The notes below the pieces were generated by a model. The model worked only from the letters and a program-made list of their open reading frames with translations. It was not told the DNA's origin and ran no database searches. A stretch of DNA of 32,592 nucleotides from a bacterium (GTDB taxonomy: Bacteria; Patescibacteriota; Saccharimonadia; Saccharimonadales; Saccharimonadaceae). Each line of letters begins with the position of its first letter. Position 1 is the first letter of the stretch. A program made the translations under genes and the position numbers. The DNA lies in the NCBI GenBank assembly GCA_030432305.1, contig JAUIHN010000002.1:1-32592 (forward strand). The letters are read 5' to 3'. Of this stretch, positions 4,874 to 19,400 are shown in pieces.

Positions 4874-4950
4874 AGATGTTTCAAGAACTATCGTATAATA
4901 CCAGTTTTCTCTCTCACAAACAAGACTACCAAGCCGCCTACCTGGGCTAC

Positions 4951-5196
4951 ATCACTACTGTCGTAGCGATGTGACACTTCGTCGCCTCGGAAATGACTGC
5001 AAGCATCATTTCTCTCGTCTCCTCATGGTAGATTACTCCTCTCAGAGAATGTAACATTTCGTCACTTCGAAAGTGCTTTCAAGCAAGCACTTTGCTCGTT
5101 TCCTCATGTTAAATTACCGCTGCTACGGCAATGTACCATTTCGTCGCCTCGGAAATGAATGCAAGCATCATTTCTCTCGTCTCCTCATGGTATAAT
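4951..5196 (+). repeat. Three tandem 81-bp palindromic promoter-like units upstream of tRNA-Thr
   Basis: Units begin at 4951, 5032 and 5113, an exact 81-bp period. Each has a small upstream hairpin, an outer inverted repeat (TAACAT/ATGTTA in unit 2, TACCAT/ATGGTA in unit 3, degenerate in unit 1), an inner 7-bp stem and a loop containing CAAGC. Inner stems are GAAATGA/TCATTTC in units 1 and 3 and AAAGTGC/GCACTTT in unit 2. Each unit ends in an extended -10-like box: TAGATT, TAAATT, and finally TATAAT at 5191-5196, which is positioned to drive tRNA-Thr. Stems change while pairing is kept. The same unit occurs once before ssrA (18910-18988). Confidence 0.75.
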
Positions 5197-5212
5197 AACA
5201 GATATACCCTGT

Positions 5213-5288
5213 GCCGCCTTAGCTCAGCTGGTAGAGCGGTACTTTCGTAAAGTATAGGTCGCCGGTTCAAATCCGGCAGGCGGCTCCA
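5213..5288 (+). tRNA. tRNA-Thr(CGU)
   Basis: Acceptor GCCGCCT/AGGCGGC. D-stem GCTC/GAGC. Anticodon stem GTACT/AGTAT with loop TTCGTAA (anticodon CGU, reads ACG). T-stem GCCGG/CCGGC with TTCAAAT. Discriminator U and encoded CCA. The U discriminator matches the T-box bulge before thrS. No terminator is visible before the next CDS 29 bases downstream. Confidence 0.94.
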
Positions 5289-14806: not shown

Positions 14807-15703
14807 ATGAATCAACGCATAGAAGTACGATCCATCGTAAGAAAAGACGATAAGATTCTTCTTTTGAAGCGCGCGAGCGGCCGAGAGGATTTGCTTGGAA
14901 GATTTGAGCTGCCGGGAGGCCGCATTAATACAGACGAGCAGCCCGAAGAGGCTGCCACTCGCTTAATAAAAGAGCTGGTTGGTCTCGACGTCAACGTTTT
15001 ATATCTTTCAGATGTATTTACCTATTTCGACCAAGGAAAGCGCAGTATCCAACGTACGGTTATAGTGTACGTTGCAAGCGTATCTGGAGGTAGAAAAGAC
15101 ATCGAGCTTGCTCCAAAATATACTAAATATGTGTGGAAAGGGCTGTCTGATGTCAAACAAGACGACGTAACAGATGTCTCGCATGTACTACTTTCGGCAC
15201 ACAAAGAAAAGCCAGGGGTCACGACGGCTGTCGACGGGGTGAAAATCCGCAGCGATGTCAGCTATTCGGCGAAAAAGCAGGCCGGAGCTGTACTGTACTC
15301 TGACGGTGGCTCTAGAGGTAATCCTGGTCCTTCGGCGGCGGGATATGTTATTAAAGACAGCAACGACAGGCTGGCCTATGAAGGCGGGGCGTACCTCGGG
15401 ATAACTACCAATAATCAGGCGGAGTATCACGGTGTTCGCCTGGGGCTTGAGAAGGCGAGGGAGCTGGGGGTGAAGTCTGTTGAATGCTATATTGACAGCA
15501 TGCTTGTAGTCAATCAGCTTAATGGCCAGTATGTTATCAGAAACAGGGAGCTGTGGCCGATTCATGAGCGGATAAAGGAGCTAATAGGGCAGTTTGATAA
15601 GGTGACATTTCGGCATGTTAAGAGGGAATTCAACCAGCAGGCTGATGGTATGGTAAATAAAATCCTGGATGCACGCGCCAAAAAAGAAGCCAGTAAGGTG
15701 TAG
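14807..15703 (+). CDS. Fusion of Nudix-like domain and RNase HI
   Basis: 298 residues. Residues 1-140 form a Nudix domain (GRFELPGGRINTDE...), but the helix reads RLIKELVGL instead of REUxEExGU, so one glutamate of the catalytic set is kept and two are lost. Residues about 160-295 are RNase HI of the short type with all four catalytic acids: YSDGGSRGNPG, NQAEYHG, YIDSMLVV and NQQADGM. RNase HI cuts the RNA strand of RNA-DNA hybrids. A fusion of these two domains is unusual; no frameshift lies between them. The stop abuts the -10 box of RNase P RNA. No clear Shine-Dalgarno precedes ATG 14807. Confidence 0.88.
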   Translation: MNQRIEVRSIVRKDDKILLLKRASGREDLLGRFELPGGRINTDEQPEEAATRLIKELVGLDVNVLYLSDVFTYFDQGKRSIQRTVIVYVASVSGGRKDIELAPKYTKYVWKGLSDVKQDDVTDVSHVLLSAHKEKPGVTTAVDGVKIRSDVSYSAKKQAGAVLYSDGGSRGNPGPSAAGYVIKDSNDRLAYEGGAYLGITTNNQAEYHGVRLGLEKARELGVKSVECYIDSMLVVNQLNGQYVIRNRELWPIHERIKELIGQFDKVTFRHVKREFNQQADGMVNKILDARAKKEASKV

Positions 15704-18909: not shown

Positions 18910-18988
18910 ACCTGCTCCGTACAGGTGTAACATGCCGTCTCGAAGCAAAGAACAAGCTCTTTGCGTACTCGTCTCCTAATGTTATAAT
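18910..18988 (+). promoter_or_regulatory. Palindromic promoter unit of ssrA (same family as 4951-5196)
   Basis: Small hairpin ACCTG/CAGGT, outer repeat TAACAT/ATGTTA, inner stem GCAAAGA/TCTTTGC around loop ACAAGC, link CTCGTCTCCT, then extended -10 TGTTATAAT (TATAAT 18983-18988). A possible -35 TTGCGT (18961) lies inside the inner stem. Layout and conserved blocks match the tRNA-Thr units while the stems differ. Confidence 0.72.
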
Positions 18989-19001
18989 ATGTGCATGGTA
19001 T

Positions 19002-19400
19002 GGGGCTGATACAGCTTCGACAAGAGGACATTAACAAACTACTTGGCAGATCGAACTATGCACGTTACGCATATATCTAATTGCAAACAAACTTGCATCA
19101 GTAGCTGACTCAGTGAAGAGCCTTTTCAAGGCTCCTCATCTGGCAGTTGCGCCAATTGCAGCTTAATTTCGCTGTAATCATCGGTATTCGTCAGGCGACG
19201 TAGCGAACATCGGTGTTATATGTATGTCGCTTACCTGTTTATGGCGCAGAGACAGTAAATGGGGAAAATCTATCTCGCCGTAGCTGGAATTTTTTGTCTT
19301 TCTTTTATTCTCAGTTATCGTTATTTCAAGATAGACTATGTCTGTAGAGAAGTAGTTGGTTACCTTTTGGACCGGGGGGCAGTACCCCGCAGCTCCACCA
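19002..19400 (+). ncRNA. ssrA: tmRNA
   Basis: It starts GGGGCTGATACAGCTTCGAC and ends CAGCTCC-A-CCA; these ends pair as the tRNA-like acceptor. The tag frame runs from GCA 19083 to TAA 19164 and encodes 27 residues beginning ANKLASVADS and ending LAVAPIAA, unusually long but with the expected small hydrophobic C-terminus. The T-arm CGGGG/CCCCG has loop GGCAGTA instead of TTCRA. tmRNA rescues stalled ribosomes and tags the product for proteolysis. CCA is encoded. Confidence 0.95.

Follow-up and report, generated by a model that had tools for sequence, protein, structure and literature searches.

Three repeats stand directly upstream of a tRNA-Thr gene in this contig, raising the question of whether they form a promoter element that regulates stable RNA genes, as a sequence-only reading of this DNA had proposed, or belong to something that spreads by itself. 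They belong to a family of short, palindromic DNA elements that had not been described before. This family is probably MITE-like, that is, made up of short non-coding mobile palindromes that insert at -10 boxes and stack in tandem.

The array before tRNA-Thr and its relatives

The window, meaning the whole stretch of 32,592 nucleotides that was analysed, contains one tandem array, located by Tandem Repeats Finder at 4969–5192 (period 81, 2.8 copies, 73% matches). The array consists of three units of approximately 81 bp (4948–5199) and serves the tRNA-Thr gene (CGT; 5213–5288), from which it is separated by a gap of 16 nt; the units found in the window and the genes that they serve all lie on the forward strand. 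Gapless repeat families within it gave spacings of 80/82 and 81/81, and the array, earlier described as exact, is thus exact to within 1 nt. The units are non-identical in sequence, with 90% identity between units 1 and 3 over 70 nt.

The left boundary is a relic -10 box and target copy, TACATCACT (4948–4956), which aligns with the single TGCTATAATAACA promoter of relatives. Hairpin h1 of unit 1 (4949–4972) pairs this left target copy with its own inverted copy (ACATCACTAC tgtc GTAGCGATGT). Unit 1 itself (4967–5035), recognised by repeat spacing and by a covariance model, has a weakened outer stem and encloses the inner hairpin GGAAATGACTGCAAGCATCATTTC (4989–5012). A relic -10 box, TAGATT followed by ACT (5029–5037), marks the boundary with unit 2 (5047–5116), and a second relic, TAAATT followed by ACC (5110–5118), marks that between units 2 and 3. 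Unit 3 (5129–5197), the best match to the family, leads into TGGTATAAT, an extended -10 box that has stayed intact and precedes AAC (5188–5199); it is both the right target copy and the putative working promoter of tRNA-Thr. Consensus TATAAT is therefore kept by the last unit only, in agreement with the sequence-only reading. Its inverted repeats, weakened outer stem and both-sided stem changes between units (TAACAT/ATGTTA versus TACCAT/ATGGTA, and GAAATGA/TCATTTC versus AAAGTGC/GCACTTT) were also as described. Units 1, 2 and 3 scored 73.8, 75.8 and 87.9 bits, respectively, with a covariance model built from 20 copies, the window units included. Single units folded only modestly better than shuffled sequences (z -1.5 to -3.0), and the strength of the observation lies in the comparison between copies.

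The fourth unit that had been noted in the window was recovered at 18923–18989 (51.7 bits; 3′ end TGTTATAAT), where it serves the tmRNA gene ssrA (19002–19400; RF00023, 94.2 bits). Between the two sites, the ORF at 14807–15703 appears by eye, from its sequence only, to be a fusion, Nudix-type in its N-terminal part and RNase HI-like in its C-terminal part.

With unit 3 as query, relatives were detected in 25 of 198 genomes of the same family. Their common layout runs from a -10-like box through the small hairpin h1, an outer arm, CGTCGCCTCGG, an inner hairpin, CTCGnCTCCT and a second outer arm to an extended -10 box. The inner hairpin varies in sequence among copies, its tip often being GCAAGC, and the conserved core is thus CGTCGCCTCGG, a hairpin of variable sequence and CTCGnCTCCT. 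The search of Saccharibacteria genomes with a covariance model, which had been proposed as a check, found upstream copies in many of them: model R1, whose E-values are rough and which, like its seeds, favours promoter copies, matched 226 of 394 family genomes, all draft or reconstructed, in 39 of 61 genera. The richest genome contains at least 20 copies, and that of the window contains seven at five sites (three before tRNA-Thr, and one each at tmRNA, ftsZ, a signal peptidase gene and the rplK-rplA region).

Among 84,980 genomes, a strict sequence pattern matched Saccharibacteria only, and across the order, family f1 dominated, accounting for 51 of the 52 genomes that had matches. A phylum-wide search added six genomes from other Patescibacteria families, one of them with at least seven copies; these retain a core of the CTCGGAAA-hairpin-TTTCTCTCG type. 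The hosts found are thus Patescibacteria only. No element match was found in phages or plasmids, nor did the strict pattern match any IMG/VR viral contig, and an origin from phages or plasmids was rejected on these grounds. No matching described element was found, as the earlier reading had supposed, and the literature on Saccharibacteria repeats or mapped promoters yielded nothing on this one.

Promoters with and without the element

The sequence TATAAT, with at most one mismatch, ends 81 of 108 copies, a fraction biased upward by the inclusion of the box in the model. An ORF starts within 70 nt of 68 of the 81 promoter-type copies, although one of these (L090) truly precedes a tRNA. The distance from the -10 box to the start codon peaks at exactly 6 nt (20 of 68) and lies between 4 and 11 nt in 50 of 68. 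From this clustering, the downstream -10 box looks like the working promoter, with the element upstream of the transcript, and the 6-nt spacing suits leaderless transcripts. In family f1 genes in general, the start codon is often found 6 nt past TGnTATAAT, suggesting that leaderless extended -10 mRNAs may be common in Saccharibacteria.

The copies sit mostly at promoters of housekeeping genes. Pfam analysis of the genes downstream identified FtsZ (in two genera), FtsA, RecA, DNA polymerase I, DNA polymerase III alpha and ParA, tRNA synthetases of the Leu-, Met-, Glu- and Gly/Pro-type, and thymidine kinase, RNase HII, LemA, phosphoglucose isomerase and signal peptidase. A tRNA or tmRNA lies downstream of only four or five sites. 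The suggested role as a regulator of stable RNA genes was therefore not borne out, since most copies precede protein-coding genes such as ftsZ, ftsA, recA, polA and those of aminoacyl-tRNA synthetases.

Orthologous promoters were compared at three sites. At the first, the tRNA-Thr gene is conserved together with its neighbour. The element is absent in approximately 25 other genera, where nearly every promoter has just one extended -10 box, of the TGnTATAAT type; in the closest relatives it reads TGCTATAATAACA or nearly so. The same place in the window reads TACATCAC, TAGATTAC, TAAATTAC and, last, TATAATAACA, each separated from the next by one element. In 21 other family genomes, the tmRNA promoter is free of the element. 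The ftsA promoter of genus g17 is empty in nine genomes, with a constant distance from the -10 box to ATG; two further genomes carry two stacked units and a relic, and two closely related ones carry a remnant that lacks the inner hairpin. This remnant (GCACGCGTCTCCTTGTGTTATAAT; L144 and L145, in G121 and G016) lies approximately 35 nt upstream of ftsA and suggests hairpin deletion as a route of decay. The flanks of the stacked unit in G071 are TATATGAAGCTT and TATAATGAAGCTT, the latter being the ftsA leader. Promoters that bear the element thus have a -10-like box on both sides, whereas their element-free orthologues at tRNA-Thr, tmRNA and ftsA have one extended -10 box, and these are the empty orthologous sites expected of a MITE. 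In the tRNA-Thr and tmRNA comparisons, vertical descent of the window copies at the same sites across many genera was not seen.

Target duplication, dispersal and a proposed mechanism

The left and right boxes that flank each element were compared for a set of 45 promoter copies after de-duplication. They agreed at positions +1 to +3 past the hexamer in 61 cases versus 44.0 (sd 4.9) after permutation (4 of 5000 permutations); upstream positions showed no significant excess, and positions +4 to +9 showed none. In a larger copy set, hexamer position 5 was also in excess. This agreement marks a duplication of approximately 9 bp (TATAATNNN) at insertion, running from the hexamer through +3. The fixed length is that of a MITE target duplication and is a statistical one, many single copies, the decayed boundaries of the window included, having no exact 9-bp match.

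The target also occurs in a third, inverted form. The reverse complement of the left NNN lies inside the element beside the left box in 24 of the 45 copies versus 7.0 expected by permutation. Over all copies, promoter-type or not, the arm matches the left and right flanks far beyond permuted pairs (0 of 300), and the inverted target is present in both classes. Box duplication and inverted NNN together give the plan target, inverted target, core hairpin, target. The same plan is seen at a non-promoter target, the tRNA 5′ end GCGCCCGTA in L240, and by eye in L237, L239 and L247. In genus g12 (L014, L016, L021, L023, L024 and L033) and in L036, copies adjoin tRNA 3′ ends, where the tRNA end, repeated in both direct and inverted form (e.g., GGGGTGAGAT ... 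ATCTCACCCC), closes a multi-hairpin structure and the orientation of the core relative to transcription is reversed. Exact direct repeats of at least 8 bp are absent around most of the copies examined from G300 and from the other Patescibacteria families, the exceptions being L236, L237, L240, L245 and L247.

Within genomes, the element is dispersed. Near-identical copies with unrelated flanks were found in one genome each for L013/L032/L042, L082/L090/L096/L122 and L244/L246; G075 has three such copies, alike from left box to right box, and G041 has four. The long versions of G300 are nearly alike in L243, L244 and L246, with differing flanks. These versions and those of G365 (L053, L075 and L077) are near-identical non-promoter forms with extended outer palindromes, dispersed within one genome, and some of them adjoin terminator-like sequence. 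Tandem stacks occur elsewhere in G071, G172, G072, G319 and G236. Random scatter, as of a simple mobile repeat, had been named as the outcome that would speak against a promoter element: dispersed copies of a mobile type are largely what was found, but they are targeted to promoters and not random.

A mobilising gene was sought among the Y1 transposases. Y1_Tnp was present in 7 of 20 element-rich versus 1 of 20 element-poor or element-free genomes. Within approximately 1 kb of twelve Y1 loci (L202–L213), model R1 gave no match at E ≤ 1, and mobilisation of the RAYT/REP kind was rejected because the transposases are present with no element copy beside them. The window's own genome (G000) has four RAYT-like Y1 genes of approximately 200 aa, on C38 (L202), C45 (L203), C31 (L204) and C62 (L205). 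In L202 and L204, the Y1 gene has different hairpins of its own beside it, for instance CCGGAAGGACTGTCCTTC, which recurs upstream in L202, and distinct families of the REP type may be present here. In G041, the NNN on the left moves with the element and that on the right is of the host locus, a pattern that fits homology-driven copying better than classical transposition and hints that a transposase may not be the only means of spread, recombination between -10 boxes being another.

We propose a mechanism in which the core hairpin enters the -10 box of a promoter, its commonest site in Saccharibacteria; this step is shown by the comparison of promoters, and the duplication of approximately 9 bp of the box by the permutation statistics. 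A third, inverted copy of the target, likewise shown statistically, lies beside the core; it was possibly made by snap-back or template-switch copying and can pair with either flanking target copy to give nested inverted repeats. Movement may be driven by an enzyme or by templated copying. To judge from its spacing and conservation, the downstream TGnTATAAT copy would continue to drive the gene, and since extended -10 promoters need no fixed -35, housekeeping promoters would tolerate the insert. Arrays would grow when one box is entered repeatedly, or by duplication from box to box, and their upstream boxes would then decay, the pattern seen in the window, G071 and G172.

More broadly, it is conceivable, and we suggest it tentatively, that these elements represent a new class of mobile DNA across several Patescibacteria lineages, each element having as one arm the reverse complement of the target that it entered, and the class spreading through the TGnTATAAT motif common to all promoters. 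An arm copied from the target would imply homology-guided, snap-back or template-switching insertion at easily opened DNA, for example at -10 boxes and the ends of tRNA genes. The genomes of Patescibacteria are very small, yet the family has put DNA into the promoters of genes that are among the most needed (ftsZ, ftsA, recA, polA, tRNA and tmRNA). An element that targets -10 boxes and preserves their function would explain how a DNA parasite survives in a crowded genome. Natural promoter variants with and without the insert are also now at hand for bacteria that have hardly been studied.

Competing explanations and known systems

The paired stems are what a selected structure would also show. 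Among 109 distinct copies, standard pairs occupy 92.4% of stem cells, both-sided changes occur at all 16 stem pairs, and the covariation for which a test had been proposed scored 0.606 versus 0.177 in shuffles (0 of 500) and at most 0.107 in slid structures; this alignment was fitted to the model and its absolute figures lean upward, and 20 independently aligned copies gave 0.428 versus 0.168. That the elements act as structured RNA (a leader, an attenuator or a small RNA whose transcription would begin at the -10-like box upstream, often present at constant spacing) is nevertheless very improbable. Selection on RNA would tolerate G.U far above A.C, as it does in the tRNA control from the same genomes and loci (42 versus 7), but the 1726 stem cells of the element contain 32 G.U and 54 A.C, and the palindrome is thus kept at the DNA level. 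This test, together with the lack of any Rfam match to the element, led us to reject an RNA element. The reversed orientation of the core at tRNA 3′ ends also contradicts it, as do start codons 6 nt past the downstream -10 box, whose transcripts would exclude the element. The short RNAs once suggested for these repeats find no support here for the same reasons.

Nor does compensatory change mean, as had been argued, that the fold is selected: the arm also repeats the insertion target in inverted form, and template-switch correction of inverted repeats could suffice to keep arms matched without selection. Perfect "compensatory" covariation can stem from DNA copying instead of selection on a fold, which calls for caution. 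We regard it as unlikely, though deserving of weight, that the family is a selected cis-regulatory promoter element, its palindrome and core binding a regulator or extruding as a cruciform and its dispersal being the spread of a useful regulon module; in one variant, an inverted target arm that pairs with either -10 box would be a supercoiling-sensitive switch. Strong covariation, a place directly upstream of the -10 boxes that are likely to drive housekeeping genes, and recurrence at the same genes in different genera (ftsZ in g1 and g35, leuS in g8 and g34) all agree with such a role. One copy is moreover kept in place in three g36 species (L061/L064/L065) with changes in both arms, indicating that some copies are old and that a regulatory role for some is possible. 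However, the same core occurs outside promoters (g12 tRNA 3′ ends, G365 and G300 long palindromes, L239/L240 tRNA 5′ ends), the element is absent from most orthologous promoters examined, upstream units decay, and the arms follow the local target instead of a fixed operator. If no mobile element were involved, a promoter segment would have been duplicated locally in tandem, through slippage or unequal crossing-over. Such plain duplication probably contributes to array growth, the near-copies among array units (window units 1 and 3, and the inner stem common to the G172 units) being of the kind that it would produce. As the sole explanation it is already contradicted and scarcely credible, leaving unexplained the single copies of the same core at unrelated genes across genera, the restriction of the strict pattern to Saccharibacteria, and the empty sites that lack the core.

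The family was also compared with known systems. Integron attC sites are poorly conserved palindromes in which structure outweighs sequence, and in this the elements resemble them; identity with attC was set aside since the element boxes do not fit, by eye, the RYYYAAC/GTTRRRY core. REP/BIME sequences mobilised by RAYT (TnpA-REP) are likewise short, intergenic, dispersed hairpins, and Y1 transposases of RAYT size occur in several element genomes, but no R1 match flanks the RAYT genes found here. Target duplication is not known for Y1 transposition. Classical MITEs are small, non-autonomous and palindromic (PMC10969869), and the Saccharibacteria family shares these features with them, together with a target duplication of approximately 9 bp and near-identical copies with different flanks. 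Unlike them, it has no fixed terminal inverted repeats, its outer arms varying freely and following the local target; it contains an inverted target copy, and no parent transposon was found in a search confined to Y1_Tnp. The MITE review makes no mention of Patescibacteria (PMC10969869). Correia elements of Neisseria (CREE/NEMIS), compared here by description, are also short, non-coding, dispersed palindromes with a conserved core and many copies 5′ of genes, and a -10 box or promoter can be supplied at the element end (PMC2649163; PMC10969869). CREE, however, have defined repeat ends and a sequence of their own, whereas in the Saccharibacteria family the arms vary by copy according to the local target, and what is duplicated as the target is the -10 box itself.
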